From the NCBI RefSeq assembly GCF_900099995.1, contig NZ_FNCZ01000012.1, positions 55,653 to 119,652 of the forward strand: a DNA stretch of 64,000 bases, given 5' to 3'. The stretch's first letter is position 1. Every line of letters begins with the position of its first letter. The stretch is from Winogradskyella thalassocola. Lineage in GTDB: Bacteria > Bacteroidota > Bacteroidia > Flavobacteriales > Flavobacteriaceae. Below are positions 24,853-57,795 of the stretch, in pieces. The position numbers and the translations under genes were made by a program. The notes under the pieces were generated by a model. That model saw only the letters and a program-made list of their open reading frames with translations. It made no database searches and was not told where the DNA came from.

Positions 24853-24859
24853 AGTTATT

Positions 24860-25246: not shown

Positions 25247-25263
25247 AATTAATTAATTTTATG

Positions 25264-25345: not shown

Positions 25346-25352
25346 TATTTAA

Positions 25353-26081: not shown

Positions 26082-26092
26082 TTTTCTTTAAG

Positions 26093-26120
26093 ACCTACAG
26101 GTTCTAAAAGCCTGAGAGGT
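26093..26120. repeat. Intergenic palindrome, CCTACAAGG family copy 4 (degenerate)
   Basis: ACCTACAGG at 26093-26101 faces CCTGAGAGGT at 26111-26120 with mismatches; it lies between the two ATPase genes. Confidence 0.5.
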
Positions 26121-26127
26121 ATATTTT

Positions 26128-27030: not shown

Positions 27031-27036
27031 TACACT

Positions 27037-27495: not shown

Positions 27496-27508
27496 TTTAT
27501 TATAATTA

Positions 27509-28414: not shown

Positions 28415-28423
28415 CTGTCTTAT

Positions 28424-31779: not shown

Positions 31780-31781
31780 AA

Positions 31782-39984: not shown

Positions 39985-40983
39985 TTATTTATCAAAAGTA
40001 ATGCTCCAAATGCCTCTTACTTCATTACTATTATAACCTATAGCTTTATCTAATGGATATAGACTCTTAATTCGTGTTAATGTTGTGTTTTCTAAAGTTT
40101 CATTCAGTTTTCCGTGGCATTGAAGACACATTGTGTTTGTCGTAATTGGATAATAAACCCTTACTTTATTATCTAATTCTTTTACAATTGGACTTGCCTC
40201 TTCATTATTAGCGATAACCTTTTTAAATGTATTTATATAATCTAATTCTTCTGAATTTGCATTATTTTTAGGGTTTCTTGGCTTATCTGAAACACGTTTT
40301 ATAATCACATTATGCACCACTGACATACTATCCGTTAAAGGATACGCGCGTTCATTACAAAATGTTAAGGCTTCTAACACTCCTTTTTTCTGAATAGTAC
40401 CCATCAAATTTTTACCTAAAACCGCTTTTGTAGCTAAAGCATATTTTAAACCTCTCTCTCCATAAGATAAGTCTTCAAAATTAGTTTGGGCTTGTTGCAT
40501 ACCATGCTTTTTACCTTGACCATTTCCCATGCCTTTGCCTCTTTCTTCATTGAAGTGCTCTTGAAACCATTCTGGTTGTTCTATATGATTATCGTACATA
40601 TAATCTGCAATCTGTTCTATAGTTTTCTCTGCAAATGCCTGTTTAGGCATCACACCAAATCGTTTTACAGCTCCATACATTTTAGCATCAACTGCATTTG
40701 GATTTTTAATCCAAGCTTGCATTGAAGCAATAAAGTCTTCTTTACTAGTTTCACTATTAATATAATGTTTTTTAATGGCAATCATTGGAGGACCAATTCT
40801 ATCGGCTTGAGTTGCCGTAGGACTATGACAAACATAACAATTGGTTTCCATTAATTTTTTGCCAGGATGCTCTTTAGTAACGGTAACTTGGTTAACTTTA
40901 CTATAAGCCGTATTATCTTTACTGTTGGAGTTACAACTCACAACTATTAACGCTAAAACAATTAATACAATATTATTTTTCAT
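39985..40983 (-). CDS. Cytochrome c / DUF3365 haem lipoprotein
   Basis: 332 residues with a lipoprotein signal (LALIVVSCNSN). The N-terminal c-type domain has a CYVCH haem-binding motif (about residue 48) and FGVMPKQAF with an axial Met candidate. The C-terminal half matches DUF3365 (Tll0287-like): ALTFCNERAYPLTDSMS, a VSDKPRNPKN segment and a second haem motif CLQCH. It is therefore probably a dihaem periplasmic or outer-membrane redox/sensor protein. A perfect GTAAC-N4-GTTAC site lies 54 bp upstream. Confidence 0.87.
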   Translation of the reverse strand: MKNNIVLIVLALIVVSCNSNSKDNTAYSKVNQVTVTKEHPGKKLMETNCYVCHSPTATQADRIGPPMIAIKKHYINSETSKEDFIASMQAWIKNPNAVDAKMYGAVKRFGVMPKQAFAEKTIEQIADYMYDNHIEQPEWFQEHFNEERGKGMGNGQGKKHGMQQAQTNFEDLSYGERGLKYALATKAVLGKNLMGTIQKKGVLEALTFCNERAYPLTDSMSVVHNVIIKRVSDKPRNPKNNANSEELDYINTFKKVIANNEEASPIVKELDNKVRVYYPITTNTMCLQCHGKLNETLENTTLTRIKSLYPLDKAIGYNSNEVRGIWSITFDK

Positions 40984-41049: not shown

Positions 41050-41829
41050 CTAGACTTTAAGTAAGGTTATTAATGCTTCAGGTTTTGGTGGTGGATAAAA
41101 GTGCAATATTTTATATTGTTCTGTAATAGCTATTGAACCAATATAACTAGCATTTAAATTGAAGCTATAAACATTGACATTTTTAAAATCTTGAACCAAT
41201 GAAGAGGATACTAAATGGGATCCATCTCTAACAGGTATTTTCAAAAATTCGTCATCAATACCTTTTCCTGTTGCCTTTACAATAGCTTCTTTTCTTGTCC
41301 AGAATTTATAAAATGTATGTCTTTGAAATTCAGAATTATGAATGAAATTTATTTCTTCAGCACTAAACACTATTGGCAGGATTTCTTCATATTCGAATTG
41401 AGGATTTATATACTCAACATCAACACCTAACTCACAATTACCAATTGCGATTAGAGCAAAATCACCTGCATGAGAAACGTTAAAAAACAAAGCTTTATCA
41501 GCTTTAAGATAGGGTTTATGATTGCTATTCTTTTCGAATTGGACTTCTGAAATATGTATTTGTTTTTCCTTAGCTAATACATATTTTAGGATACTACGAC
41601 AAATGACAAATCTCTTTTTGTCTTTAACGTCTCGATATCTTTCTGCTCTTTGAATCTCAGAAATAGTTAATCTTTTTAATAAAATATCGACAATTCCATA
41701 ATACTTAGATAATTCAATTTTGAATAATTTAATATATGAATCGGTATTATTTTCTTCGTCTATATTAAAATCAAAGATTTCAGAAGTTTTACTAAAAATG
41801 TTACATTTGGAATTATTATTCTCCATCAC
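41050..41829 (-). CDS. 4'-phosphopantetheinyl transferase (Sfp type)
   Basis: 259 residues. Family motifs are visible: NSNHKPYLKADKALFFNVSH, GVDVEYINPQ (Mg-binding Asp) and FYKFWTRKEAIVKATGKGI. It transfers phosphopantetheine from CoA to the carrier-domain Ser of the NRPS and PKS encoded upstream, making them active. The gene overlaps the NRPS gene by 14 bases and is the last of the four-gene synthase operon. Confidence 0.94.
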   Translation of the reverse strand: MMENNNSKCNIFSKTSEIFDFNIDEENNTDSYIKLFKIELSKYYGIVDILLKRLTISEIQRAERYRDVKDKKRFVICRSILKYVLAKEKQIHISEVQFEKNSNHKPYLKADKALFFNVSHAGDFALIAIGNCELGVDVEYINPQFEYEEILPIVFSAEEINFIHNSEFQRHTFYKFWTRKEAIVKATGKGIDDEFLKIPVRDGSHLVSSSLVQDFKNVNVYSFNLNASYIGSIAITEQYKILHFYPPPKPEALITLLKV

Positions 41830-44800
41830 TTAACACGCTTTCTAATAGTTCACTCACCTCATCAACTGCAGGTGGTAAAAACATTTCTGAATGATTTCCA
41901 GGAATCATGTGCTTACGAATTCCTCCCTTCGCGATTTTTTTCCAACCTAAATTCTTATAATCGTGAGTGAAATAAATATCTTCAGTTGATCTAAACAAAT
42001 CTACTTGTATATCTTGTGGAATTAAATTGTAACGTAGAAATGCCACGGCGTGCATCTCGTCAATCTTAGAGGTGCGATTGAATTGTAATTGATATTGTTT
42101 TTCTCTTCCATATTTTAATCTTAAATATAATCCTGAAAAACTTATTTTAAGTAATTCAACCCTACGTTTAAAATTCTTAACACTACTAAACATGTTAAAG
42201 AGCATGAAAAAAAGTTGACCCATATTATAAAGACGAGCAATTGTCCGTTTTACTGCAGGATTTGAATAGGAATAATGAGGATAAGCATAACTATCAAAGA
42301 GTGCTAAATTTTTCACTTCTTTTCCTTCAGCCTTTAGTTGTTTTGCCATTTCAAAGGCTACAATACCTCCAAACGAAAATCCTCCTATGGCATAAGGTCC
42401 ATCAGGATTTATAGTCTTAATTTCTGATATATAATGAGCTGCCATTGCTTCTACAGAATCATGAGGTTCAATATCACCGCTAAGACCTTTAGCTTGTAGG
42501 GCATAAATAGGGTGTTTACCACCTAATATTTCTGATAAATTCTTAAAAACCAACACATTATGATTTGCTCCGTGAACAATAAATATTGGTATTTTATGGC
42601 CATTAGTTTTTAAGGGTACTAACGAATCCCAGGTAATATATTTCTTATCCAAATATGCTGCCAGTTTCTTAATTGTTGGTTGCTCCAATAACGCAGCAAG
42701 CGGTAACCTATTTCCAGTCTCTTTTTCTAACCGAGTCATAACTTTGACTGCGATGAGAGAATGGCCCCCTAATTCAAAAAAGTTACTATCAACATCTATT
42801 TTATCAATTCCAAGAGATTCTTGCCAAATCGTAGCAACAAGTTGTTCTGAATTACTTTGAGCAAAAGTTAAAATTGCTTTTTGTGAATTTATTGATGCCG
42901 AAGTGATCAAACTTTTGCGATCTATTTTCCCATTTAAAGTCGTAGGAAATTTATCTAAAGTAATCATTTCCTGAGGCACCATATATAATGGAAGTCGTTC
43001 TTTTAAATACGCCTTCCAATTTTGTTCTAAGACCTGAGTTGCATTTTTTAAATTATTAGTAATGACAAATGTTTTTAAACGATCTTCATCTATTATTACT
43101 ACAGAGGACTCTATTCCGTCTATTGTATTTATAGCTTCTTCTATTTCTCCAAGCTCTATACGGTGACCACGAATTTTAACTTGTTGATCAATACGACCTA
43201 AACATTGAATTTCTCCAGTAGGTAATAATTTACCCAAATCTCCTGTTCTATAAATAAAGGCGTTTTCATCTATATTAAAAGTGTTTTTCAGAAATTTTTC
43301 AGCTGTTAAGTCCGGACGCTTCCAATATCCCTTTGCTACACCATCTCCTGCTATGCACAATTCTCCAATCTTACCAGGTACCACTAATGCACCGTTTTCA
43401 TCAAGTATGTATAATTGCGTATTTGCAATGGGATGCCCAATAGTTATTAACTCATCATCTGGCATAATTTGCTTTACAGCAGACCAAATAGTAGTTTCAG
43501 TAGGACCATACATATTCCAAACTTCATCAACTCTTTTGAATAGTTTAGTGGCTAAGCTCAATGGCAGTGCCTCACCTCCACAAAGTGCTTTTAGAGGTAA
43601 GCGGTTTTGCCAACCTGCATCAAGCAACATTTGCCACGTAGTTGGTGTTGCTTGCAACATTGTTATACGTTCTTCTTTAAGAACATCTAACATTAAACGA
43701 GGATCTTTAGCTACCTCATCCCTAGCAACGACCAACGTTGCTCCTTTTAACAATGGCAAAAATAACTCGAGTCCAGCTATATCAAAAGAAATCGTTGTTA
43801 TGGATAAAAGTCTATCTGCTTCTTCTATACCAGGCTCTTTTAACATACCATATAAAAAATTAACAAGATTCTTGTGAGTTACTTGAACACCTTTTGGTTT
43901 ACCTGTTGAGCCAGAAGTATAAAGCAAATAGACCATATCGTCTAAAGCTATTGAAATATTTAATGGTGATAACGAGTATTTTGATAGACCTAAAAATAGA
44001 TCTTCAAGCATTAGTATCTTCGGAATTGACTCTGATGATAGCGTAAATTCATTAGATGAAATTAAAACCTCAGCTTGTGAATCTTCTATCATAAAATCTA
44101 ATCGCTGCTGAGGATAACTCGGATCTAAAGGTAAATAGGCTGCCCCACACTGCATTATAGCCAGTAAGCTCACAACAAGCTCTATAGAACGCGGCAAAGC
44201 CACCGCTACAACATGACCAGGATTTATACCTTCTTCTTTTAAACGATGTGCTAATTGATTAACTTGTTTTTCTAAATCGTGATAAGAAATTTCAGATTCT
44301 CCATATTTTAAAGCTTGTTTTTCTGGTGAAGCTTGGGCTTGCCTTGATATAAGTTGATGCAAAGTTGATTGCGGATAATCTACTTTAGTACTATTTAAAG
44401 TATTATACTGGGAATCATCTACTTTTACAATATCACCAATTTTAATATCAGGATTGTCAACAACAGTTGCGATGATATCTTGAAAAGAAGTCATCATATT
44501 TTGAATTGTTTCCGATTTAAATAGATTTGAATTATAGGACCATTCTAAAACAAGTTCTTTTTCTGATCCCGAAGCATTCAAAAAAAGCTCAAATATTTCA
44601 TAAGCTCTAGGATTGCTTTTTAAGACATAATCCAAACCCGAAAAGGAAACATCATTGTCCATTCCCATATCAATATTAAAAACAACAGGTACTAATGGAA
44701 CTCTTGATGGGTCTCTTGCAATAGATAGCTTTTGTAATAATTCTCCAAAACTAAATTTTTGATGTTCATAGGCATCAAATAGTTGAAATTTACGTTGTTT

Positions 44801-45838
44801 AAGGTAATTACTGAAACTAATATTTGAATCAATTTTACTACGTAAAGGCAATAAATTTACACAATGTCCAATCATTTGGGTTTTATCACTTGCTGCTTGG
44901 TCAGCTGATGGCAATCCCAAAACAATGTTGCCTTGCTCTGTTTGTGTGTATAGAAAAATCTCAAATGTCGATAATAGCGTCGTTACAAAACTAGAACCAG
45001 CTTTTACCCCTGTTTTTTTAAGGGCATCCACCAGATCCATTGGCATTGGCAAATCGAGACGTTCGCTTTTGAACGTTCTAAATTGAGGTCTTGGAAAATC
45101 CGTGGGTAAAGTCAGTTGAGGAACAGCATCTTGAAACTGATTGAGCCAATAATTTTCATTGATGGTATGTGCATTACTCGCTAAATATTTATGTTGTTCA
45201 TCTGCATAAGCAGAAAAGCTTTCTGGCTTTGGTAAATTGTGAGCGGTATTATTAACGTTTGAAGAATAGAGGCTTCCCAATTCTTGAAGCATAATCCCTA
45301 AAGACCAACCATCGCAAACGATATGGTGTCCTGTGAGGATCAAATGATGCTCCGTTTCCGACTTCTTAATTAATCCAACTTTTAAAAGCGGACCTTTTAA
45401 TAAATCAAAAATATAATTAGCTTCTGAGGATAAATAACCTTTTATAAATTTATCTTTTTCTACATCATTTGATTTCGATACATCATGATAATCAACTGTA
45501 AGTGACAGTTGCTTAAAGATGCTCATAAATTTACCATCTGTACTAAAAACAGCTCGCAACGCTTCGTGACGATCGACTAAACTTTGGATAGCGTTTTCAA
45601 GTGCAGACTTATTTAAACCGCCTGTTAATATTAGGGATATGGATTCATTATACGCTCTGTTTGCATCTTTATCTCCTAGCTTACACGCAATCCAAATTTC
45701 TGCCTGTGGTTGAGTGGTATAAATTACCCGTTCTATTACGGGTCCGCTAAATGGGTTAAAATTATCCGTAGTATTTAATAAAGTAGTGTCTTTCATCAAT
45801 TTGATTTCAAAAAACTGCATATTAGGCAGTATCATCAT
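41816..45838 (-). CDS. NRPS module C-A-PCP-TE, predicted glycine-activating
   Basis: 1340 residues. The condensation domain (about 30-460) has active HHIVCDGWS with His171. The adenylation domain (about 490-980) has LYTSGSTGKPKG, YGPTETT and the A10 Lys in NGKIDRK. The eight-to-ten pocket residues read by eye as DILQLGMIWK, close to the known glycine code DILQLGLIWK. PCP has LGGHSL with Ser1027. The C-terminal thioesterase (about 1095-1340) has GGFSFGG with Ser1155 and a terminal PGNHSEM His. It accepts an upstream acyl chain, adds an amino acid and releases the product. An ATG at 45796 is a plausible alternative start. Confidence 0.95.
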   Translation of the reverse strand: MMILPNMQFFEIKLMKDTTLLNTTDNFNPFSGPVIERVIYTTQPQAEIWIACKLGDKDANRAYNESISLILTGGLNKSALENAIQSLVDRHEALRAVFSTDGKFMSIFKQLSLTVDYHDVSKSNDVEKDKFIKGYLSSEANYIFDLLKGPLLKVGLIKKSETEHHLILTGHHIVCDGWSLGIMLQELGSLYSSNVNNTAHNLPKPESFSAYADEQHKYLASNAHTINENYWLNQFQDAVPQLTLPTDFPRPQFRTFKSERLDLPMPMDLVDALKKTGVKAGSSFVTTLLSTFEIFLYTQTEQGNIVLGLPSADQAASDKTQMIGHCVNLLPLRSKIDSNISFSNYLKQRKFQLFDAYEHQKFSFGELLQKLSIARDPSRVPLVPVVFNIDMGMDNDVSFSGLDYVLKSNPRAYEIFELFLNASGSEKELVLEWSYNSNLFKSETIQNMMTSFQDIIATVVDNPDIKIGDIVKVDDSQYNTLNSTKVDYPQSTLHQLISRQAQASPEKQALKYGESEISYHDLEKQVNQLAHRLKEEGINPGHVVAVALPRSIELVVSLLAIMQCGAAYLPLDPSYPQQRLDFMIEDSQAEVLISSNEFTLSSESIPKILMLEDLFLGLSKYSLSPLNISIALDDMVYLLYTSGSTGKPKGVQVTHKNLVNFLYGMLKEPGIEEADRLLSITTISFDIAGLELFLPLLKGATLVVARDEVAKDPRLMLDVLKEERITMLQATPTTWQMLLDAGWQNRLPLKALCGGEALPLSLATKLFKRVDEVWNMYGPTETTIWSAVKQIMPDDELITIGHPIANTQLYILDENGALVVPGKIGELCIAGDGVAKGYWKRPDLTAEKFLKNTFNIDENAFIYRTGDLGKLLPTGEIQCLGRIDQQVKIRGHRIELGEIEEAINTIDGIESSVVIIDEDRLKTFVITNNLKNATQVLEQNWKAYLKERLPLYMVPQEMITLDKFPTTLNGKIDRKSLITSASINSQKAILTFAQSNSEQLVATIWQESLGIDKIDVDSNFFELGGHSLIAVKVMTRLEKETGNRLPLAALLEQPTIKKLAAYLDKKYITWDSLVPLKTNGHKIPIFIVHGANHNVLVFKNLSEILGGKHPIYALQAKGLSGDIEPHDSVEAMAAHYISEIKTINPDGPYAIGGFSFGGIVAFEMAKQLKAEGKEVKNLALFDSYAYPHYSYSNPAVKRTIARLYNMGQLFFMLFNMFSSVKNFKRRVELLKISFSGLYLRLKYGREKQYQLQFNRTSKIDEMHAVAFLRYNLIPQDIQVDLFRSTEDIYFTHDYKNLGWKKIAKGGIRKHMIPGNHSEMFLPPAVDEVSELLESVLSDGE

Positions 45839-45865
45839 TTAATTCACTCTAGAGTAAAATTCTTT

Positions 45866-46744
45866 TTATCTTTGAGAAGCCCCTAACAAACTTCCTACTA
45901 CTGAGAGATAAGGCTTGGTCATTTTTGCAATGACATTACTTTTTTTCGCAACCTTTGTATACACCTCTGCAGTAAATCTATTCCAATTAGAAGCATTTAA
46001 TGAATCTTGTGCAACAGATATTGTACTGGTTAAAGAATGGGCTGTATGCCACCATCCATTAGGAATGAATAATGTTTCTCCTGGACCAACGCTAAAAGTA
46101 ATTGGAGTGGCCTTAGCACTTAATGGAAATTTTTCTAAATCGATGTTCTTAATATCTGGTATGTCGGAAACCCATGTGTTATTTTTCTTAGGATAAACAT
46201 ATGGCGTTTGATCTGGAGGAAGAACTGTAAACTCCTTGATTCCATACAATTGCGTAATATACGCATGAAGTCCCATATAATCATAATGCACATAAGGAAA
46301 TTGCCCTCCAGGACTACCCAAGAAAATTTCATATGTATCTGCACCTCTTAAAAATGGCTTAAGCAAAGTATTATGGCTCCAGTCGGGATTTGCAAATGCG
46401 AATCGAGGATTAATATCAGGTAGTAATTCTGAATAATCTCTGTCAATTTGCAGCTTACAAGGATATGGAGCAGGGTTGTCAAGTGTAGCAATCTCCATCA
46501 TATCAATAAAGTCCCCAAGTTTATATTGGTTCCCCTGAATTTCAACCATTCTATTACCATACTTCGATTTAAAAAATTCAGGTGTAAACTTGTCTTTTGC
46601 TGACCAATCTTTACAAGCATCTCCTATAACGACAGGGTAATTGGCAAAAAGGTGATCATTGGCAAATTCTTCATACGACATTCCATATTTTTTCTCTACA
46701 GAAATGCTTCCGTTGTTAACTAATTCTATAACTTTTGTAGCCAT
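45866..46744 (-). CDS. Cupin_8/JmjC-like Fe(II)/2-oxoglutarate oxygenase, cluster copy 1
   Basis: 292 residues. The iron triad is seen as HYD in YVHYDYMGLHAY (HxD) and the distal His in NGWWHTAHSL; the YPKKNNTWVSDIP segment between is usual in this group. Such enzymes hydroxylate amino-acid residues or carrier-bound intermediates. It lies between the hybrid synthase (14 bp) and the NRPS (27 bp) in the same operon, so tailoring of the assembly-line product is likely. The second cupin gene at 55134-55997 is a paralogue. Confidence 0.88.
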   Translation of the reverse strand: MATKVIELVNNGSISVEKKYGMSYEEFANDHLFANYPVVIGDACKDWSAKDKFTPEFFKSKYGNRMVEIQGNQYKLGDFIDMMEIATLDNPAPYPCKLQIDRDYSELLPDINPRFAFANPDWSHNTLLKPFLRGADTYEIFLGSPGGQFPYVHYDYMGLHAYITQLYGIKEFTVLPPDQTPYVYPKKNNTWVSDIPDIKNIDLEKFPLSAKATPITFSVGPGETLFIPNGWWHTAHSLTSTISVAQDSLNASNWNRFTAEVYTKVAKKSNVIAKMTKPYLSVVGSLLGASQR

Positions 46745-46758
46745 AATTACGTTTTATT

Positions 46759-49700
46759 TTATAAATCTATTTTTACAAATTTACCCGCTTGTTTAGCATC
46801 TGAAACGAACCAAGCAGGATTACCTGATTCATCCATACCTAAACGCGCTCCTGAAACTGGAGGTTGATTCAAATCTTCAGAAGCTTTTATATTTGCATCT
46901 ACAATATCATCTGTATTCATTTCTGATTTAAAAATACCTGCGCCAATAAGCTCTTCAACACACTCGATAAAGGTATTAATTAAATGCGTAACATCTTCAT
47001 CCTTAAACGCTGTTGTCATAAAACATGGAAAACCATCCCAGATATGAATTCCTTTTAATCTCATTAGAACAAAAACCAATTCAGAATAAGGAACTTCCTC
47101 TAAAAAAGACAATCTCCATAACGATTTAAAATGATTGATTTGAATAGGTAAACTCTGTTTTTTGAAGTAAATATTCAATTCTGTTGCAAAACGATCTGTC
47201 ATAGCCGCCAAATCATCTTGAAGTTTTGGCCCATTTTCCCTTAAATGAATTAATGACGCTTTTGAAGCTGCTAAAGCTAAGGGATGACGGACAAAAGTTC
47301 CAGCAAAATACGTAACTCCAACTTCTGGAAAGGAATCATCTCCAAACTGCCAATGCCCACCATCGAGTGCATCCATATATTTTGAACTACCCACTATGGC
47401 CCCAATAGACAATCCACCACCTATAACTTTGCCGTAAGTCGCTAAATCAGCCTTTACTCCGTAGATCCCTTGCATACCTTGAGGCCCCATACGGAAACCT
47501 GTAATAACTTCATCAAAAATTATTGCAGTATTAGAAGATCTAGTAATCTTACTAACTTCCTTTACAAACTCTACAGGTTGAAATTCTGGTCTTCTACTTT
47601 GGACAGGTTCAATGAGAACAGCTGCCAATTCGTGAGCTCTATCCCGTATAATCTGTAAGCTTTCTTCAGTTCCATAATCCAATATCAGCATATTTTTAAC
47701 CGCTTCTGGCATAATACCTGGAGCCGCAGGGAAAGATTTCTTCATTCGAGAACCTCTTACTAAAACCTCATCAGTAATGCCATGATAGGATCTTGAAAAA
47801 GCAACAATTAAAGATCTTCCAGTAACTGTCCTTGCGATACGCATCGCTCCTAAAACGGCTTCTGATCCTGTATTACATAATGCGGCACGATCGTGTTGTG
47901 TGGACTCGCAAAGTAATTGGCAAACTTCACCTGCTAAAGGGTGTTGAGGCCCAACCTCATAACCTTTTTCTATTTGTTCATGTAATGCTTCTTTTATGAA
48001 GTCGGGTTGATGACCAAACAAACTAGAACCAAAACCATTTAATACATCTATATATTCGTTACCATCTATATCCCAAAGTTTATTTCCTGAAGACTTACCA
48101 ACGACCAAAGGGTATACCAATTCTTTTGTTAAAGGTTTAAAACCAGAGACCACTCTTGGATCTGACATATGTGAGCGATGTTTTTGGGCATAAGCCTTAC
48201 TTCCTGCTGTTTTCTTATTATAGGTAAGAATTAAATTATCTAAAAATGTTTTTTGATTAGTGTTTAATCCTGTTGATTTTCTTTCAATTTTTGGCGATGC
48301 ACCAAATGGTTTTTGATGCTCTTTCTTTTCATCTTCAGATAAATCCTCTGTTGAAGCTACAACTGGTGCTGATGCCATTATAGGTTTACTTTCCTGAGCC
48401 ATAGTCATTGGTGCAGCAACATTACCTGTTCCCTGAAGTAACTCCATTTGTTGCCCTAATAATTGTAATTGCTGAGCTATTAAGCTTAATGCCGTATTTT
48501 GTGTCTGGTTATTGACAACGTTTACAGATTGTTGAGCAGGTCTATTTGGCAAAGCATTACTTAGAGGTGCCTGTGTATGGACGTGGTTAACTGTTGGTGC
48601 AGGTGCATAAAATTCTTTAGGTATCACTTTATCTAAATGATCTGCTAATAAGTTTGGAGACCCAAATTCATCATTCAGCTGTCTAAATGTAATAGGTGTA
48701 TCGAATTCTTTTTTAAATGTTATTGCCATTTGAGTTAACACTAAAGAGTCTAAACCAAGTTCTAAGAAACTTAGATTAAAATCATTAGCGTCAATTTCAA
48801 CTCCAGAGTTCTCTTCTATGATCTCTGATATTTTATTAAGAATTATAGGTTTTCTCATAAACTTGGTATTGATGTTAGGTAAAGGATCAATATATTGATC
48901 TTCTATATATTCTGTTTTGTTGATAAGGTTACTAATTGTTGGTTCTACCGTTAAAGGCTCTACCCAGCATGGCTTGCGATCAAACACATAGGATGGCAAC
49001 CATAATTTCTCTCTAATTTGATCTCCGTAAAACGTTTTCCAATCGGGTTCTACACCGTTTAACCATAAATCACCAAGTGCTGATAATGCGGTATGGTATG
49101 CACTTTCATTTTCCTTAGGATATGATAAACTTGCAATAGAGGCCAAAGATTTTAGACCTTTTTTCTGCATTGATAAAGTTGTTAAAGCACGACCAGGCCC
49201 TATTTCTAGTAACACTGGATCTTCTAAACCTAAAACGGTTTCCATTGCGCCAGAAAAATTTACGGTTGATCTTAAATGATTTGTCCAGTATTTAGAACTC
49301 GTTGCTTCTGCATCAGTAAGAAAATCGCCAGTTACTGTGGATACTATAGGTAAGCGAGGCACATTCAATGTAACTTTATTAACTTCGGCTTCAAAAACCT
49401 CTAATACAGGATCCATCATAGTTGAATGAAAAGCATGACTAGTCAGTAGAATCTTGTTTGCAATGGTCTCTTTATCTAAGACTTTTACGAAATTTTCAAC
49501 ATCATTATCAGGTCCTGAAACTACTATTAAATTATCTGAGTTGATAGCTGCAATGGATAGTTCTTCTGGAATTAAATTCTTTAGGTCATTTATAGTTGTC
49601 CGAACAGATAACATACTTCCACCTGGTAATTCACTTACTAGTTTACCACGCATTGTAATCAAATGTAAGGCGTCTTCTAAAGTAAATACACCAGCTAAAT

Positions 49701-52700
49701 GCGCTGCTACAAACTCGCCAATACTATGACCACATAATAATGTCGGTTTTATGCCCCAACTCATCCATAGTTGTGAAAGTGCGTATTCAATAATAAATAA
49801 TGCTGGTTGCGTATATTGGGTATCTTTTAATTTACTTTCTGCTTCTGTTGAATTTTCTTCAGGATAAATTATAGCTCTTATATCTAATTTTAAGTCAGAT
49901 TTTAATAATTCCGCACATTGATCTACAGCATCTCTAAATACTTTTTCACCATCATATAGCGCTTTACCCATTTGAAGGTATTGTGAACCCTGCCCTGGAA
50001 ATAAAAATGCCAATTCACTTGGTACCAACTTCAACACATTAGATTTAATACCTTTACTATCTGTAGACAATAATTTTTCTTTAGCTTCAACGACATCTTT
50101 GGATACAGCAAAACTTCTATGTGCAAAAGCTTCTCGAGTACTACTTAAAGAGTGCGCGACATCTGCAAGCAAAAGGTTAGTAGATGAATCTAAATAGTTC
50201 GCTAATGCTTTTTGGTAGCCAACCAAACTATTTTCTTTTTTGGCAGACCACGTTAAAAGCTGAACAGGGCGTCCTTCATCTGAAATTCTCTGCTGATTTT
50301 CATATTCTTCAACTACGATATGAACATTTGTTCCACCAACACCAAACGAACTAATTCCTGCTTTTCTGGTGCTTTTAGAGTTCCAAGGAGACAATTTATT
50401 ATTGACATAAAATGGACTGTTTTCAAAATCGATTGAAGGATTTGGTTTTACAAAACCTAAAGACGGAGGGATTTGGCGATTTTTAAGTGATAGTACCGTC
50501 TTAATTACACCTGTAACACCTGCTGCTGCTGTAAGATGTCCCATATTACTTTTAATAGAACCAATAGCACAATAACCGTTGACAGCTTGTTTTCCAAAGG
50601 CCAGTTTAAGTCCTTCTATTTCAATAGGATCTCCAACAGGTGTTGCTGTTCCATGAGTTTCTATATAACTTATATCAGATGGATCAATATCTGCATCAAA
50701 TAATGCATTAGCAATTGCGCCAGCTTGCCCTTCTATGCTGGGAGCTGTAAAACTTCCTTTATCACCACCATCATTATTAATACCAACACCTTTAATAATA
50801 CCATGAATGATATCACCATCTCGTTTTGCATCTTCTAGATTCTTAAGCAATAAAACACCAGCCCCATCACTAAAAACAGTTCCTTTCGCATTTTCATCAA
50901 AAGAACGACAATGCCCATCTGGACTCATCATTGAACCTTCTTCATACAAATGTCCACTATTAATAGGAGTTGTAATACTAGAGCCTCCGGCCAAAGCGAT
51001 ATCACAGCGACCATGTCTAATCGCATCTGCTGCTTCCGCAATAGCAAGTAAGGATGTGGAGCATGCAGAATGCACACTTACTGCTGGTCCTTTAAGGTTT
51101 AAATGATAAGCTGTTCGTGTTGAAATATAATCTTTCTCATTAACTGTACTAGCTTGGAAAGCACCTATTCTATCTATAAGGTCTTTATTAGGAAGTATAT
51201 TACTCTTGAAATAAGTGTTCATTCCTGTACCTGCATATACACCAATACTTCCATCAAAATGTACCGGTAAATGACCGGATTGCTCCAATACTTCCCAAGC
51301 TATTTCTAAGAATAATCGTTGCTGAGGATCCATCGCTTCTGCAACTTTTGGATTGATTCCGAAGAATGCAGCATCAAACTCTTTTACAGAAGGCACAACA
51401 CCACGCGCGCCAACATAAAGCGGATCGTTACGGAGTGCTTCAGGAATAGAAGGATCTAGTTCATCTGGTGTGAAGAATGAAATCGTTTCCTTACCATCTC
51501 TTAAAACTTCCCAGAGTTCTTGAATAGAATTGGCACCAGGAAATCGTCCTGCCATTCCAATAATTGCAACATCAGAAGTTCCATTTTTTCGTTTTTTAGT
51601 TACACTAGGTTTAAACTTAGATTCTTTTAGAGGTTCTAAATAATTGGATAATTCTGAAATTGTAGGATGTTGATATAGCTTTATAATAGGTATTTCATAA
51701 TTATAATTTTGTCGTAAAGTTGCAACCGTTTTTTGAGCTAATAACGACGTACCACCCATTTCGAAAAAATTATCTAAAATGCCAATTTCAGGAATTCGTA
51801 ATAGATCAGCCCAAACTTTAGTTATATTTTTCTGTATTTCAGTTACTGGTTTCTTAAACAATGGAGCTGTGCTTGGCCTATTATATTCAGGTAATGGCAA
51901 TAGCTTCTTGTTAATTTTACCACTTGATGTTTTAGCAAAGTCTGTTACCCAAATATAATAGGCTGGCAACATATAATCAGGCAATACAGCACTAACCTGT
52001 TCTTTAAAACTTGTATTGTCCTCTGGTGGATTATCCGATTGCAAATATGCTATTAACTGTGATTGATCTGACAAATGATTACTAGCTATTACTACGGCTT
52101 GCTGAATATTAGGTAATTTATTAAGCGCTAATTCTACTTCGCCAAGTTCTATTCTATGACCACTAATCTTTACTTGTTCATCTTCACGACCTAGAAATTC
52201 AATGTTACCATCTGGCAAGTAGCGCGCGATATCCCCAGTACGGTACATTCGGGTTTCACCTTTATCTGAAAGTTCTATAAATGAAAATTTTTCGTTTGTT
52301 AGAGCTTCATTTCCTAAATATCCTTCTGCTAAACATACACCAGCGATACAAAGTTCTCCAAGTTTACCTTTTGGCACTTCTTGTTGTTTTTTATCTAATA
52401 TATATATAGTTGTATTATCAATTGGTTTTCCTATTGTAGGCAATGCTGGCCAATCATCAGGATCCCCTTCAAGTTTTAATTCTGTAACAACATGACATTC
52501 TGTAGGACCATATTGGTTAAACAGTTTACAGTTATCTAGTGCATTAAAAAACGTACGTAACTGATTGGTGATTTTTAATTGCTCACCAGCCGTCATTATC
52601 TCTTTTAAACACGATGGGAAGAGCGCCAAACTTACTGCTGCCTCTGCTAAAGCTTGTAATGCCACAAAAGGAAGAAAAAGTCGATTGACAGCATGTTTCT

Positions 52701-53388
52701 CTATTAATCTTATAAGAGCGAACATATCTAATCGTTGATCATCGCGAATTAAAACAAGTGTTCCTCCTGTGCTTAAGGTTGACATAATCTCTTGAAATGA
52801 GACATCAAAACTTAATGGTGCAAATTGCAAGGTGCGTGAACCATTTTTACATGTTGAATTTTTATTCTGCCAATTAATAAGATTAACCATGGCTTTTTCA
52901 CCCATACAGACCCCTTTTGGTTCACCTGTAGAACCTGAAGTATACAATATATAAGTAGCTGTATTTTTAGAACTTGACTCATTTACCCCTTTATCGATAG
53001 ATTGTTTAAGTCCATTAATTAATGGTTTAAGTCCAATTGCTATCACTTTACTTTCATCCGCCTTTGTTGTTAAACAAAATGAAAGTTTTGAATTAGAAAT
53101 AATTCCTTCAAGCCTTTTTTTAGGATATCCGAAATCAATTGGTAGATAGGCTTTACCTGATTTTAAAATTGCTAATACGAAGATTATTTGTTCAACACAA
53201 CGTGTTGTAGGTACACCAATAATTTCTTCATCTTTAGCATGACTCAAAATTGTATTATAAATTTTTGAGACCGCTTCCTCTGTTTGTCTATAGGTTAGCT
53301 TATCTGTTTCTGTTATTATACAAATATCATCTGGATAAGATTTCGCTGCCTTTTCAAAAAGTAGATAAACTTGGCTATGGTTACTCAT
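46759..53388 (-). CDS. Hybrid synthase A-PCP-KS-AT-ACP-aminotransferase
   Basis: 2209 residues. Domain order: adenylation (about 10-495; LYTSGSTGEPKG, SFDVSFQE, YGPTE, GKINKK), PCP (Ser548 in GGTSLL), ketosynthase (about 605-1030; Cys776 in SACSTSL, HGTATPVGDP, KSNMGHL), acyltransferase (about 1135-1420; Ser1222 in GHSIGE, HAFH at 1318-1321 indicating malonyl-CoA), ACP (Ser1548 in GLDSLV), Gln-rich linker (about 1580-1680) and a class III, GSA-type aminotransferase (about 1690-2180; IIFDEVITGF, PLP Lys1987 in TYGKVIGGG). No KR, DH or ER. The A pocket reads DVQFMAQVVK, proline-like. It loads an amino acid, extends it once and converts the beta-keto group to an amine, as in iturin/mycosubtilin and microcystin synthases. 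Confidence 0.94.
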   Translation of the reverse strand: MSNHSQVYLLFEKAAKSYPDDICIITETDKLTYRQTEEAVSKIYNTILSHAKDEEIIGVPTTRCVEQIIFVLAILKSGKAYLPIDFGYPKKRLEGIISNSKLSFCLTTKADESKVIAIGLKPLINGLKQSIDKGVNESSSKNTATYILYTSGSTGEPKGVCMGEKAMVNLINWQNKNSTCKNGSRTLQFAPLSFDVSFQEIMSTLSTGGTLVLIRDDQRLDMFALIRLIEKHAVNRLFLPFVALQALAEAAVSLALFPSCLKEIMTAGEQLKITNQLRTFFNALDNCKLFNQYGPTECHVVTELKLEGDPDDWPALPTIGKPIDNTTIYILDKKQQEVPKGKLGELCIAGVCLAEGYLGNEALTNEKFSFIELSDKGETRMYRTGDIARYLPDGNIEFLGREDEQVKISGHRIELGEVELALNKLPNIQQAVVIASNHLSDQSQLIAYLQSDNPPEDNTSFKEQVSAVLPDYMLPAYYIWVTDFAKTSSGKINKKLLPLPEYNRPSTAPLFKKPVTEIQKNITKVWADLLRIPEIGILDNFFEMGGTSLLAQKTVATLRQNYNYEIPIIKLYQHPTISELSNYLEPLKESKFKPSVTKKRKNGTSDVAIIGMAGRFPGANSIQELWEVLRDGKETISFFTPDELDPSIPEALRNDPLYVGARGVVPSVKEFDAAFFGINPKVAEAMDPQQRLFLEIAWEVLEQSGHLPVHFDGSIGVYAGTGMNTYFKSNILPNKDLIDRIGAFQASTVNEKDYISTRTAYHLNLKGPAVSVHSACSTSLLAIAEAADAIRHGRCDIALAGGSSITTPINSGHLYEEGSMMSPDGHCRSFDENAKGTVFSDGAGVLLLKNLEDAKRDGDIIHGIIKGVGINNDGGDKGSFTAPSIEGQAGAIANALFDADIDPSDISYIETHGTATPVGDPIEIEGLKLAFGKQAVNGYCAIGSIKSNMGHLTAAAGVTGVIKTVLSLKNRQIPPSLGFVKPNPSIDFENSPFYVNNKLSPWNSKSTRKAGISSFGVGGTNVHIVVEEYENQQRISDEGRPVQLLTWSAKKENSLVGYQKALANYLDSSTNLLLADVAHSLSSTREAFAHRSFAVSKDVVEAKEKLLSTDSKGIKSNVLKLVPSELAFLFPGQGSQYLQMGKALYDGEKVFRDAVDQCAELLKSDLKLDIRAIIYPEENSTEAESKLKDTQYTQPALFIIEYALSQLWMSWGIKPTLLCGHSIGEFVAAHLAGVFTLEDALHLITMRGKLVSELPGGSMLSVRTTINDLKNLIPEELSIAAINSDNLIVVSGPDNDVENFVKVLDKETIANKILLTSHAFHSTMMDPVLEVFEAEVNKVTLNVPRLPIVSTVTGDFLTDAEATSSKYWTNHLRSTVNFSGAMETVLGLEDPVLLEIGPGRALTTLSMQKKGLKSLASIASLSYPKENESAYHTALSALGDLWLNGVEPDWKTFYGDQIREKLWLPSYVFDRKPCWVEPLTVEPTISNLINKTEYIEDQYIDPLPNINTKFMRKPIILNKISEIIEENSGVEIDANDFNLSFLELGLDSLVLTQMAITFKKEFDTPITFRQLNDEFGSPNLLADHLDKVIPKEFYAPAPTVNHVHTQAPLSNALPNRPAQQSVNVVNNQTQNTALSLIAQQLQLLGQQMELLQGTGNVAAPMTMAQESKPIMASAPVVASTEDLSEDEKKEHQKPFGASPKIERKSTGLNTNQKTFLDNLILTYNKKTAGSKAYAQKHRSHMSDPRVVSGFKPLTKELVYPLVVGKSSGNKLWDIDGNEYIDVLNGFGSSLFGHQPDFIKEALHEQIEKGYEVGPQHPLAGEVCQLLCESTQHDRAALCNTGSEAVLGAMRIARTVTGRSLIVAFSRSYHGITDEVLVRGSRMKKSFPAAPGIMPEAVKNMLILDYGTEESLQIIRDRAHELAAVLIEPVQSRRPEFQPVEFVKEVSKITRSSNTAIIFDEVITGFRMGPQGMQGIYGVKADLATYGKVIGGGLSIGAIVGSSKYMDALDGGHWQFGDDSFPEVGVTYFAGTFVRHPLALAASKASLIHLRENGPKLQDDLAAMTDRFATELNIYFKKQSLPIQINHFKSLWRLSFLEEVPYSELVFVLMRLKGIHIWDGFPCFMTTAFKDEDVTHLINTFIECVEELIGAGIFKSEMNTDDIVDANIKASEDLNQPPVSGARLGMDESGNPAWFVSDAKQAGKFVKIDL

Positions 53389-54213
53389 TTTCTTCCAATT
53401 TAATTATTGTAAATATTAAAATACTTCTACTACACTTTTATGCAATTTATTGTTTCTTAAGTACGATATAATATTTTTAATATTAACTACGCTTTTATTA
53501 GTCTTAGAATCAAGGGAAAAGACTAGACTGTAATTAGTTAAATTTTGAGGGGAAATTTTTCGAAATTTAAAAAAACTTTTAAACCTACATAACAAATATT
53601 AGATAAATCGTTTCTTTTGTCGTTCAAAACCAATAAAATTCATCAATATCAAAAACCTCTTGAATTTTTGCCATTAAAACATCAAACATAAGTTAAAATA
53701 TAATCTCTTTTACAAAACAAATAGGTTTTATTATTAAAAATTACAGTTCATAAAACAAACAAAATCAATATCTAACACCATAAATGTACATATCGCTATT
53801 AGATTAGTCTCCGATAGAAAAATAGTTGGTTAAGGCTTAAATAATAAACTATTAGAAATTTTAATTCATAAAATTCCACTAACCGTTAGTATATCTAAAA
53901 TTAGTCAAAAGCAATAATTATAAACCATTACAGCTTTATAACATCAATGAAGATTGATATTATATACTACAGCAGTGCGATTGTATACTTCAGAGGTAAG
54001 AACAAATCTATTACGTTCGCTTCAAACAATTCATAAATCAAAATCTCACATAAAATGAAATTTCTGCAATCATCTACTAAAGTCATTCAAATTTATGATA
54101 ATTGAAAAGCTTTTTTCGGTCTTGGAAGTACAACGATATATCCTAAGTAACGGGCTAGTTTTTCAATGAATTTAGATTTTAGCTAATACCATATATAAAA
54201 AGTTATTAATTTT
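53389..54213. other. 825-bp AT-rich spacer upstream of the synthase operon
   Basis: No convincing gene on either strand. It must hold the promoter of the hybrid synthase operon (minus strand, start 53388), but no clear TTG / TAnnTTTG pair was found. It is more AT-rich and stop-dense than other spacers in the window. No inverted repeats of note. Confidence 0.6.
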
Positions 54214-55017
54214 TTAGTGTTCAATCCCCTGTATTAATTCTTTGTTTTTGATTGTTGTAATTAGAAACTCCATACCCCATATTCCTAACATCGTTAGAAA
54301 ATATATGATAGCAAAGGTAATGTATGTAGGGGTGCCTCCAGTTGTTGGCATTATTGGTAGTGATACGGCAGTATAATTTACCATTGTCTGTAATAGAAGA
54401 ACACACAGGCCACTTTTAGTATGTTTGTAGACAAAAGCGCACATACCAGCAAGTCCCATAAAAAATATAAATGCAGGTAAAATTGGGATTTCAGGAAATG
54501 TCCCCTCCCCAAGAAGTATTATGGGAATAAACCATAAAGTCCAAAAAACAGCAATAATTTGACTTGCATAAAATGGCTTCACGAATTTTGACAATTGCCG
54601 AATACAATAACTGACCCAAACAACTTCTCCTAGGAAAGCCCAAACTAAATTGGCCATATAACCTCTAAAGGTTGTAGTAATGAGAACAAAAAACGTAGAA
54701 TATTCAACATCAAAATAAAGAGCCTTTAATAGTAATGTAATACTAGCTATAGTTGTAGGAAAAATTAAACACAAAAAAATCCATTTTGGATGCACTTTCC
54801 AAGTTAGCATGGGCTTAAATAAATCTCTAATGCCCTTATTGCCTCTAGTAAATTTTATTATACAAATTAATATAAACAATAGAAGAATAAATCGACCTGT
54901 ATTGTATATAGAACGAGACATCATATCGTTGATCCTAGCCTGAACAAAAATTAAATTGGATAGAGGGCCAAGTACTAGAAAGATCCAAATCTCATATTTT
55001 CTAATAAAAACGCGCAT
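54214..55017 (-). CDS. CPBP-like membrane protein with degenerate catalytic motifs
   Basis: 267 residues and about seven or eight membrane helices. The region LGEVVWVSYCIRQL aligns by eye with the CPBP glutamic-protease motif (G-E-E-x-x-W-R) but lacks the second Glu and the Arg; AVFWTLWFIPIILLG matches motif 2 with the usual His replaced by Phe. MVNYTA keeps the third-motif Asn. It is thus probably not an active protease. Such proteins occur beside bacteriocin and natural-product genes, sometimes as immunity factors; that role is inference. Placed between cluster genes. Confidence 0.7.
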   Translation of the reverse strand: MRVFIRKYEIWIFLVLGPLSNLIFVQARINDMMSRSIYNTGRFILLLFILICIIKFTRGNKGIRDLFKPMLTWKVHPKWIFLCLIFPTTIASITLLLKALYFDVEYSTFFVLITTTFRGYMANLVWAFLGEVVWVSYCIRQLSKFVKPFYASQIIAVFWTLWFIPIILLGEGTFPEIPILPAFIFFMGLAGMCAFVYKHTKSGLCVLLLQTMVNYTAVSLPIMPTTGGTPTYITFAIIYFLTMLGIWGMEFLITTIKNKELIQGIEH

Positions 55018-55133
55018 AATTAAAATAGTTTCAACGAATATATTTTTTTTTTGTATATAAGAACAGCTGTTCCTAAAAAAAATCAGGAACTGTCATATTT
55101 TTTTATAAAGAATGTGGTAAAATTATGATCGAC

Positions 55134-55997
55134 TCAATTAACTAAAGACTCCTTAAGATTGAATATTTTTGACATGACCACTTTATAAACCTTAACCATC
55201 CATGCTAGTTTAGGATAATGGATTTTCGTGTTTAAATATAATTCATCCATAAAGAAATTCCAATTAAATGCGTTTACATGAGAGACTGCTACGGTAAGAT
55301 TAAAATCATGCATATAAGTTGTATGCCACCAACCTGCAGGTACAAATAAGGTTTCTCCGGGTTTTAGTGTCGTTTTTATAGCTTTTGCGTTCTTGAATAA
55401 TGGGAATTTGTCATAATCAGGATTCACTATATCGACTGGGCTGCGATGGTGGTGTCTTTTATCTGGATAAAAATAAGGGGTCTGGTCGGGTGAATATAAG
55501 ATAACATCTTTCTCTCCTTTTATTTGTGTAATTTGAGAATGTACTCCGAGCCAATCAAAATGCACGGTTGGAAAGGAACATCCATATCCACCAAAAAACA
55601 ATTCATGTTTATTAGTGTGTTTGGCAAAAAAATTACTTAAAAGACGACTATTTAGTCTATTTGATTTGCCAAATAATATTTCTGGTAAACCGCCAAAGTT
55701 TTCAGAGAAATCTTTAAGAGCATCAAAAGTAATTGGATACGGAGCTTTATTTTCTGGCGTTGACGCTTTACATAAATCAATTATTTCTGATAATGAATAG
55801 ATTTTTCCGTCTATGGTTTTAGATAAGTGGTTGTAATTAGACTTCAAATACTCGGGTGTGAACTTTTCTGATGATGTCCATTCAGCTTTATCAGTAATTA
55901 CAACAGGTAATGAAGATTTTACATAATTATTATAAAATGCTTTTTTAGACAGACCACTACATCTATCTATTTTGGATATATTAGTACGAAATTTCAT
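55134..55997 (-). CDS. Cupin_8/JmjC-like Fe(II)/2-oxoglutarate oxygenase, cluster copy 2
   Basis: 287 residues. The metal motif HFD in TVHFDWLGVHSQI and the distal His in AGWWHTTYMHDFN are intact. The general layout (KAEWTSSEKFTPEYLKSNY at the N-terminus; QTPYFYPDKRHHHRSP in the middle) follows copy 1 at 45866-46744, so the two are paralogues. It stands alone in AT-rich DNA about 1.7 kb upstream of the synthase operon and probably also tailors the product. Confidence 0.86.
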   Translation of the reverse strand: MKFRTNISKIDRCSGLSKKAFYNNYVKSSLPVVITDKAEWTSSEKFTPEYLKSNYNHLSKTIDGKIYSLSEIIDLCKASTPENKAPYPITFDALKDFSENFGGLPEILFGKSNRLNSRLLSNFFAKHTNKHELFFGGYGCSFPTVHFDWLGVHSQITQIKGEKDVILYSPDQTPYFYPDKRHHHRSPVDIVNPDYDKFPLFKNAKAIKTTLKPGETLFVPAGWWHTTYMHDFNLTVAVSHVNAFNWNFFMDELYLNTKIHYPKLAWMVKVYKVVMSKIFNLKESLVN

Positions 55998-56637
55998 TTT
56001 TATAAGTTTTTAATTATACAAAAAAATTAACCTTTTAACATAATTACTACCCTATTAACATCATTAATAATAAGGTAATGCTTTAGAATGATTCGCTACT
56101 AATCGTTACTGATTCAAACATAGTCAATTAAATTTAATTAAATTGACTTTTTAACAAATAAACAGTTAACAGACAGCACTTTACATACGGATTTTAATTA
56201 ATTGTGTTTTAAATTTCTTACATTATCGAATTCTTATTTTTTCAATCAATACAAATAACTCATAATGATTTTAAAGAAAACCAGACATATTTTCTGACGT
56301 TTTCAAGAGTATATAAAACTGAAAATTATTTGCTATTAATAAAAAAGGAAATAGATTATTTGGTAGCTATCCAAGAGATTTTCGAACATTCACAGAAGCT
56401 AATTGGTTATAAACCATGCTGAATACATTTAAAATTAGTATTCTAATATTTAAAGTTAAATAATAGATATCAAAAAGCAGCTATCATTATAGAAACACTT
56501 TGATACAAGATCATGACTTCTAACCTAAAACTAGAATAGAATTGCCCATTATCTGTTCTTATCAAGCTTAATGAGCTCAATACTTGAAATGAAATTATAT
56601 TAACTTGGAAGCAAAAAAAACCAAAATTATCGAATTT
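55998..56637. other. 640-bp AT-rich spacer without genes
   Basis: No supported gene. Short minus-strand open frames near 56.6 kb are extensions of the methyltransferase antisense frames and have no coding features. May contain the promoter of the second cupin gene. Confidence 0.6.
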
Positions 56638-57498
56638 CTAACATGAATATTTTGCTCCAATAAAAGTTTGAGTACCACCTTTAGATACTGGCTTTTGTGA
56701 GAAATGCCATAAATTAAATCCTGCGTTTTTAAAAAGCTTAGGATAGTTATGCGAAAATGAAGGCTCATTTCCATAAAGCTGCGAGTTAGGGTTTGTTTCA
56801 AAATTATGATCGCTACCATTAGGTTCTATCGCTATAAAGATAGTTTTGTTCAATCGGTTTATTTCGTTAAAAAATTCCTGTAAATTTGGTTCTAAAAAAT
56901 ATTCTAAGACATCTCTCGTCACAAAAATGGTATTACCCTGACCGTGTCTTTTAATCCAATCTAATGCATCTGAAGCTACAAACTCGAGCTTTTTGTTAGA
57001 GCTGAATTTTTTATTATTCTTTTCTACCTGTTTCTCACTAAGGTCAATACCTACAAAACGATTAATTTTAGGAAATTCTGAGGATAAATAATTCAAAACA
57101 TATCCATTACCTGTTCCTATTTCTACTAAGGTATTAAACTCTACTGATTGACTAGATAACTCTTCTTTAAGTAAATCAAATATAAATGTACAATTCGGTA
57201 AAAAGTGAGTCTCAAATAAATCTTCCGTTTCTACAAATAATTCTGTAGCTTTATTATTACGCCAAAAATCAACGTTCAATTTTGCTATTGTTTCATGATC
57301 TTGTATTTTCTCAAGTTTATTTACAAGTACATAACGCATTAACCTTTCCTGAGTGGTCAAATTCTTTTTATTCATATGTACTAGCGTTATTCTATTTTCT
57401 GATAGTTCGCGTGCCTTTTTTGGTCGAAGAAATACAAGTACATCACCTAACGTTCTAGCAATCTGCTGAATAATTTTTGATTTAGTATTAATACTCAT
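56638..57498 (-). CDS. Class I SAM-dependent methyltransferase near the NRPS/PKS cluster
   Basis: 286 residues from the ATG at 57498; a TTG three codons upstream is possible. The motif I region VEIGTGNGYVLNYLSSEF and the following acidic VGIDLSEKQVEKN define a Rossmann methyltransferase, preceded by ~140 residues of uncharacterised N-terminal sequence. FVASDALDWIKRHG is motif III-like. The substrate is unknown. It is 640 bp upstream of the second cupin gene, same strand, in similarly AT-rich DNA, so membership of the biosynthetic cluster is plausible but not proven. Confidence 0.82.
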   Translation of the reverse strand: MSINTKSKIIQQIARTLGDVLVFLRPKKARELSENRITLVHMNKKNLTTQERLMRYVLVNKLEKIQDHETIAKLNVDFWRNNKATELFVETEDLFETHFLPNCTFIFDLLKEELSSQSVEFNTLVEIGTGNGYVLNYLSSEFPKINRFVGIDLSEKQVEKNNKKFSSNKKLEFVASDALDWIKRHGQGNTIFVTRDVLEYFLEPNLQEFFNEINRLNKTIFIAIEPNGSDHNFETNPNSQLYGNEPSFSHNYPKLFKNAGFNLWHFSQKPVSKGGTQTFIGAKYSC

Positions 57499-57795
57499 AT
57501 GTAACAATTTTATTATATCAGTTAAATTTAAAAGACTAAGTTACACTTATAACTTAAAGACGAAAATATCAAATTATAAAAATCTATTTATATGAAAAGA
57601 GCATTGCAATTCTATAAAAAAAAATAGCATGCTTAGTTTTTATCCTACGAAAGACAAATATTTATGTTTAAAAGTTTACTATGACGCCTTATATTGTAAA
57701 ATTAATTCTTAAAAAGAATAATTTATTGATTTTTTTAAGTATTACAATTTATCTATTGAAACATTACTTTCTAAATCTTACTTTTACTTCCCAAT

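Follow-up and report, generated by a model that had tools for sequence, protein, structure and literature searches.

A compact non-ribosomal peptide/polyketide cluster with a cis aminotransferase and a naturally exchanged loading didomain in Winogradskyella thalassocola

The window analysed here, a whole stretch of 64,000 nt from Winogradskyella thalassocola with coordinates counted from its position 1, carries a small cluster in which non-ribosomal peptide synthetase (NRPS) and polyketide synthase (PKS) domains are combined with an aminotransferase (AMT) domain in cis. Open reading frames (ORFs) were called and their translations scanned with Pfam. The cluster filled an accessory island (41050-57772) between a cytochrome c/Tll0287 gene (39985-40983) and a YdjM gene (57796-58794), with all its genes on the minus strand. 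Its largest gene (46759-53388) encoded a 2209-aa hybrid synthase with adenylation (A; E 3.7e-63), peptidyl carrier protein (PCP), ketosynthase (KS; 3.3e-70), acyltransferase (AT; 2.1e-54), acyl carrier protein (ACP) and AMT (Aminotran_3; 4.7e-47) domains, two carrier domains being matched. The loading A domain made up the first 500 aa (51889-53388), and the AMT domain with a short tail, including the pyridoxal phosphate (PLP) lysine K1987, the last part (46759-48300). Downstream lay a Cupin_8/JmjC-like oxygenase gene (cupin A, 45866-46744; structural kin JMJD6 and JMJD5 in the PDB), an NRPS gene of 1340 aa (41816-45838) with condensation (C), A, PCP and thioesterase (TE) domains, and an Sfp-type phosphopantetheinyl transferase (PPTase) gene (41050-41829; ACPS match, E 3e-14), whose stop codon formed the left edge of the island. 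With gaps of 14 and 27 bp and one overlap of 14 bp, these four genes are likely one operon ending with the PPTase. The three genes upstream were more widely spaced (gaps of 825, 116 and 640 bp) and encoded a CPBP-like membrane protein (54214-55017; Rce1-like match of 21.1 bits, slightly below the 22.4 cut-off), a second Cupin_8/JmjC-like oxygenase (cupin B, 55134-55997; structural kin JMJD5 and FIH) and a class I S-adenosylmethionine-dependent methyltransferase with a helical N-terminal extension (56638-57498). The ORF of the latter ran from 56638 to 57507, with a start at the ATG at 57498, the end used in an earlier reading of this DNA made from its letters alone (hereafter the sequence-only reading). 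ORF calling and Pfam agreed with the gene and domain layout given in that reading. The only condensation domain found in the genome (4.57 Mb, 29 contigs) was located in this cluster.

The N-terminal domain of the synthase was an amino acid A domain (TIGR01733, 367.7 bits; cut-off 317.4). Specificity codes were extracted with positions placed by motifs according to the GrsA numbering. The loading A domain (A1) had the code DVQFMAQVVK, which fits the pattern DVQ-(F/Y/L)-x-A-(H/Q)-V-V-K of a proline-activating pocket, as a predicted specificity. When its pocket region alone (171 aa) was compared with solved structures, gramicidin S synthase 2 and tyrocidine synthase 2 ranked first; we take these modules (GrsB, TycB) to activate proline. 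In the available text of PMC9113097, the similar codes DVQFVAQVVK, DVQFVSQVMK and DVQYIAHVVK are tabulated as proline codes. The starter thus reads as proline, judged by its code. The sequence-only reading had placed a neighbouring amine or ring nitrogen in the starter and had left its identity open; the proline-type code matches the ring-nitrogen option. The second A domain (A2) had the code DILQLGMIWK, a type that we assume to specify glycine; the names of the top-ranked chains in its pocket search do not give a substrate. The coupling of glycine, proposed earlier, agrees with this code. The AT motif HAFH is of the malonyl type. No ketoreductase (KR), dehydratase, enoyl reductase or methyltransferase domain was matched in the 2209-aa synthase (Pfam, E 0.01), so the earlier statement that a KR is missing holds for the Pfam scan.

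Among solved chains, the AMT was closest to that of MycA from mycosubtilin biosynthesis (6kfm, E 2e-113), followed by glutamate-1-semialdehyde aminomutases (1.6e-45). Taken with the missing KR, this kinship suggests that the beta-ketone produced by the KS is aminated. The synthase has KS, AT and ACP followed by a class III AMT with its PLP lysine in one protein, the arrangement by which we define a cis-AMT PKS/NRPS. The sequence-only reading had the unit elongate an amino acid to a beta-keto acyl group and aminate it; the malonyl-type AT motif, the missing KR, the intact residues and the AMT kinship favour this course, in which the amination itself is what we infer.

From the domains, residues and codes, every reaction and function is predicted, as follows. 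A1 would activate proline and load it onto its own PCP. The KS would join the prolyl group to malonate supplied by the AT, yielding 3-oxo-3-(pyrrolidin-2-yl)propanoyl-ACP, which would stay unreduced with no KR present. An external donor would then provide the amine with which the cis AMT replaces the beta-keto oxygen, so that the vicinal diamine 3-amino-3-(pyrrolidin-2-yl)propanoyl-ACP is formed. The C-A-PCP-TE protein would add glycine to form the predicted core 3-amino-3-(pyrrolidin-2-yl)propanoyl-glycine, and its TE would release the acid C9H17N3O3 (215.127; [M+H]+ 216.134) or a lactam (198.124). The PPTase would serve the carrier domains, the methyltransferase would add a methyl group, and hydroxylation of the proline-derived part would be the probable task of the Cupin_8 oxygenases. 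How the product is released and what the cupins, the CPBP-like protein and the methyltransferase do is likewise what we infer.

The same AMT kinship allows another reaction, in which the HemL-like domain acts as an aminomutase that moves the amine of a 4-amino-3-oxoacyl-ACP from C4 to C3 via a diamine, with no external donor. It would use primary amino acid starters and yield a 3-amino-4-oxo product. The wider AMT family is that of glutamate-1-semialdehyde aminomutase (NCBIfam below cut-off; PDB), whose substrate has the same arrangement of an amine next to a carbonyl, and the starters across the family look like alpha-amino acids by their codes. However, the closest relative, the mycosubtilin AMT, is a transaminase, and the nitrogen of proline is a secondary amine in a ring that cannot leave, so the aminomutase reaction fits the window badly. 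We regard it as very improbable.

Catalytic residues were inspected in an alignment of 69 synthases of 1900-2600 aa, namely the window's and one from each of 68 loci. The first PCP serine, the KS Cys/His/His, the AT serine and the HAFH motif were conserved in 69/69. The AMT Lys/Asp/His and the ACP serine were present in 68/69, including the window (67/68 relatives); the exception, from a cyanobacterial contig (L070), had neither the AMT nor the ACP serine. The AMT of the other 68 shared at least 62% identity with that of the window. A second alignment contained 63 NRPS proteins of 1200-1500 aa (the window's and 62 from 56 loci), in which the C motif HHxxxDG and the PCP serine were found in all 63 and the TE serine in 61; the window's protein has them all, with TE Ser/Asp/His. 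Loss of catalytic residues in KS, AT, AMT or TE, which the sequence-only reading had named as evidence against itself, was sought in these alignments and was not seen in the window. As judged by these residues, the cluster is intact.

Two features of the upstream region could be taken as signs of decay. The protease motif positions of the CPBP-like protein, presumably Glu-Glu/Arg, His and His/Asn, were replaced in 26/26 aligned copies, and membership among the CPBP intramembrane proteases was rejected on this ground. The protein had been called degenerate before; the protease motifs are indeed gone, and because the loss is common to all 26 copies it is a stable shared trait. In addition, a decayed N-terminal remnant of a further methyltransferase gene, riddled with stops, was detected at 54036-54182 on the minus strand (tblastn E 1.9e-7). 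Psychroserpens relatives (L001, L007) have an intact gene at that place, and the remnant was not found in the segments of seven other loci tested. A cluster in decay that makes nothing would explain this remnant, the long non-coding gaps and the CPBP-like protein devoid of protease residues. Against it, the catalytic residues are kept, the large frames are open, the CPBP substitutions are a stable trait and the other methyltransferase gene is still intact, which makes this explanation highly improbable.

The synthase was present in 15/60 genomes of the genus and in 4 of a sample of 149 genomes of the family (searched with the last 813 aa, E <= 1e-150), the window's genome included in both. In all 15 genomes, a YdjM or cytochrome c gene lay on the same contig within 12.5 kb of the synthase, and both did in seven, with distances read by hand from coordinates. 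In eight other genomes of the genus the site was empty, with the YdjM and cytochrome c genes 108-209 bp apart. Homology between the window and the empty sites reached 41049 at furthest on the left and resumed at 57773 at earliest on the right. The cluster is an accessory island at one chromosomal site within the genus, and the empty sites bear out the earlier treatment of 41050-57498 as a real unit. In one further genome (G187; L103/L104) approximately 26 kb separated the YdjM and cytochrome c genes; the parts of it that were read contained no match to island proteins. The site is thus a possible hotspot of insertion.

Several neighbouring genes of the window lie outside the island. A cytochrome bd oxidase (subunits I and II, 30706-33113, minus strand) also flanks the island in several Winogradskyella loci. 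An export cassette (23599-29674, minus strand) consists of a TolC-like protein, an HlyD-like adaptor, two ABC ATPases and an ABC-2 permease matching parts of RbbA. On the plus strand, a TonB-dependent receptor gene of the copper/heme kind (37227-39329) and a 126-aa ORF with no family match (36779-37159) sit between the thioredoxin gene and a conserved 241-aa gene. This pair is missing in seven loci sharing the flank (L003, L005, L012, L014, L018, L022 and L043).

The receptor, which matches the TonB-copper family TIGR01778 with 253 bits (below the cut-off of 472), bears on the idea that the product is a metallophore: a chelator built of vicinal diamine, amide and carboxylate and imported by this receptor 1.7 kb past the island. 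Vicinal diamines bind copper and nickel. However, the receptor is outside the island, past the cytochrome c and thioredoxin genes, no such receptor follows the thioredoxin gene in the seven loci above, and no exporter, reductase or regulator was found among the seven island genes scanned. A metallophore is very unlikely in our view.

The sequence-only reading knew of no described flavobacterial pathway with this layout and had proposed looking for the same A-PCP-KS-AT-ACP-AMT protein in other Bacteroidota, where it turned out to be widespread and no isolated oddity. Of 7995 candidates scored in a protein search with the AMT part, at least 7789 reached E <= 1e-30. An adenylation domain was missing from the precomputed Pfam list in 3 of the 120 AMT matches listed, window included (P0020, P0085, P0090). 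In genome contigs, 401 stretches were confirmed as relatives by scanning, and 78 distinct loci (L001-L078) were kept from these. They came from Winogradskyella, Gelidibacter, Psychroserpens, Maribacter, Flavobacterium, Spirosoma, Pedobacter, Hymenobacter and others; a few were non-Bacteroidota or cut (e.g. L059, L070, L076). An NRPS of more than 1200 aa was encoded in 62/78 loci, and in 61 it lay no more than 2.5 kb from the synthase. Recurrent neighbours were the PPTase (49 loci), the methyltransferase (38) and the CPBP-like protein (25, 23 of these together with the methyltransferase). A literature search found no described product for this layout. According to the available sections of PMC10734526, a survey of 2,680 Flavobacteriaceae and Weeksellaceae genomes counts hybrid PKS/NRPS clusters special to Winogradskyella. 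Members of the present cis-AMT family with amino acid starters were hence very likely tallied among them, undescribed; those sections say nothing of the family's architecture or substrate, nor of its island site or product.

Some members deviate in layout. Six Maribacter loci (L021, L024, L029, L039, L055, L063) carried a rearranged version beside capsule genes, with the NRPS gene ahead of the synthase, the methyltransferase on the opposite strand in 5/6 and a synthase lengthened at its N-terminus by some 250 residues to approximately 2460 aa; P0113 and P0117, which resemble these long synthases, had a Condensation match. In L001, L006, L015 and L017 the NRPS partner had two modules (approximately 2420 aa), with an additional A domain that we take to be Thr- or Asn-like; such members should make a longer peptide. 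A contig assigned to a Klebsiella pneumoniae metagenome-assembled genome (L052, CALPPA020000082.1) carried a relative of a synthase otherwise found in Bacteroidota, possibly through a binning error.

The loading code varied strongly within this family. Among 74 relatives with a complete A1 code, 23 had the proline type of the window, and the rest had 25 other eight-letter codes, including presumably Thr-, Ser-, Val- and Gly-like ones. On a quick KS-AT tree the code changed at least 28 times, and the proline type at least 10 times. Between the synthases of the window and Algibacter lectus (L020), identity was 23-44% by segment in the A domain and 47% in the PCP, as opposed to 84% in the KS, 81% in the AT, 86% in the ACP and 72% in the AMT, and the pattern was repeated in two Flavobacterium pairs (L032/L034, L035/L038). 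In the three rows that were scanned, the identity step fell between residue 580 and residues 600-640, at the boundary of PCP and KS. Even at the shared site within the genus, the 15 genomes carried six codes: the proline type (3), DAENVGAVTK (7), DAEHIGEVTK (2) and, in one genome each, DAESVGEVTK, DAEHVAKVAK and DILQLGMIWK. The pocket of the 12 non-proline synthases shared 28-36% identity with that of the window, versus 74-78% for the KS, 66-83% for the AT, 64-80% for the ACP and 72-80% for the AMT. The A-PCP loading didomain is thus naturally exchanged as a block at the PCP/KS junction. The window's copy was itself a mosaic. Among the loci compared, residues 1-180 of its synthase, cupin B (88%), the CPBP-like protein (86%) and the NRPS (81%) were nearest to W. 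marina (L003) and cupin A to L049 (89%), whereas W. epiphytica (L005) and Psychroserpens (L007) were the nearer ones for most of residues 180-1680.

We hypothesize that a conserved amine-installing core is combined with loading didomains exchanged via recombination at the PCP/KS junction. With exchange at one site, sister species would make homologues from different amino acids. Taking the domain, residue and code evidence together, we consider it likely that the cluster is a small NRPS/PKS line making a prolyl-C2-amine-glycine unit, with its loading didomain exchanged in evolution.

The distribution of accessory genes was compared with the A1 codes. Cupin_8 genes occurred in 10/69 rows, and the proline-type code in 9/10 rows with a cupin versus 15/59 without (Fisher p 1.8e-4); independent pairs on the tree agreed in direction in 3.2 cases and disagreed in 0.3 on average. 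This association hints, weakly, at the proline-derived part as the candidate substrate of the cupins. A second candidate link concerned the code DAENVGAV, for which seven loci carried an ornithine-racemase-like gene (NF040742, 265 bits for one representative; cut-off 480) and a GNAT gene. The ornithine-racemase-like gene cluster was in none of the other fetched loci, and it would fit an ornithine starter. The predicted model of the methyltransferase (predicted local distance difference test, pLDDT, 88) had a class I fold, and N-methyltransferases headed its list of fold matches, tied with others.

Several observations weigh against the proposed pathway. The A1 code is at least one residue off every printed proline code. 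Cyclisation or decarboxylation of the beta-keto-gamma-amine could compete with its amination. The link between cupins and the proline code was not significant when relatedness was allowed for (sign test, median p 0.25), and 15/24 proline-type rows lacked a cupin in the locus. The agreement of the ornithine-like code with the ornithine-racemase-like gene amounts to a single change on the tree.

A different destination of the product was suggested by the flanks of other loci. The assembly line might make a building block of a surface polysaccharide, namely a diamino acyl unit or dipeptide attached through an amino sugar to an exopolysaccharide or O-antigen, much like the acyl R-groups of the Flavobacterium psychrophilum O-polysaccharide. 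Eleven marker families were scored (glycosyltransferases, Wza, Wzc-like, Wzx, Wzy-like, sugar transferase and dehydratase; one representative of each identified), and 28/78 loci had at least two of them in the 10-kb flanks or between genes. The marker state changed at least eight times on the KS-AT tree, and two or more markers occurred in six of the other eight rows of the 99-supported set that includes the window, in Psychroserpens and Maribacter loci. One marker, Poly_export, had 0-4 matches per genome in the genus, so chance would place one in few such stretches. A precedent is the 3,5-dihydroxyhexanoyl group on Qui2NAc4N of F. psychrophilum, predicted, in the available text of PMC6519341, to be ACP-derived and made by type II enzymes. 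However, the markers were chosen after viewing the loci, which are related, and were counted without matched control loci. The window does not qualify as a polysaccharide locus, with no polysaccharide gene among the genes scanned. The three Poly_export matches of its genome sit on contigs other than the window's, and none lay within 50 kb of the synthase in the 15 synthase-bearing genomes of the genus, among the matches listed. The line also has its own TE. For the window, we hold the polysaccharide building block to be rather unlikely, and the prolyl-C2-amine-glycine line with release by its TE remains our preferred reading.

A broader proposal joins both ideas: phylum-wide beta,gamma-diamino acyl peptides ("amino-statines"), with cassette exchange at the PCP/KS junction and the product of several lineages placed on surface polysaccharide. 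We regard this as doubtful; if true, starter swapping on surface polysaccharide would act as antigen or phage-receptor variation. The recurrent residence in capsule clusters raises the idea that bacterial surface glycans might be modified by NRPS/PKS chemistry. An assembly line for vicinal diamino acids would add a new building block from which enzyme inhibitors or metal ligands could be made; the literature search found no recognisable description of a beta,gamma-vicinal-diamine or amino-statine unit made this way. The genus site amounts to a natural experiment in assembly-line engineering, with one KS-AT-ACP-AMT core, six kinds of loading didomain, congeneric species and a single site, and it marks the PCP/KS linker as a junction used by evolution. 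As far as sequences can tell, this is a widespread and intact family of cis-AMT PKS/NRPS lines that would start from amino acids and whose loading didomain is exchanged in nature, a variation on known systems.

Of these systems, MycA (mycosubtilin/iturin) likewise has an ACP followed by a cis class III AMT, and its AMT (6kfm) is the nearest solved relative. The MycA AMT aminates a beta-keto thioester. Whereas MycA starts from a fatty acid, the window's synthase would be primed with an amino acid by its A-PCP didomain, so the new amine would stand beside an existing one. Unlike MycA-type lines, the window's line ends after one glycine-type module with a TE. Membership among the iturin/mycosubtilin synthases was rejected because an A domain replaces the acyl-ligase and only one further module lies in the island. 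The microcystin synthase McyE follows the same logic of polyketide extension plus aminotransferase. In tychonamide, pahayokolide and nostophycin, too, these steps deliver a beta-amino acid to an NRPS, according to the available text of PMC13252402. Compared with McyE and the cyanobacterial beta-amino polyketides, the window has no C-methyltransferase and no monooxygenase domain, starts from an amino acid and has a two-protein line in place of many modules. McyE-type membership was rejected since Pfam found no methyltransferase domain in the 2209-aa protein. In units of the statine/detoxinine type, chain extension adds one C2 unit to an amino acid, with a KR, before further peptide bonds are formed. 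The synthase is not such an extension module, having no KR match; it carries an AMT in place of the KR and would install an amine where those units carry a hydroxyl.

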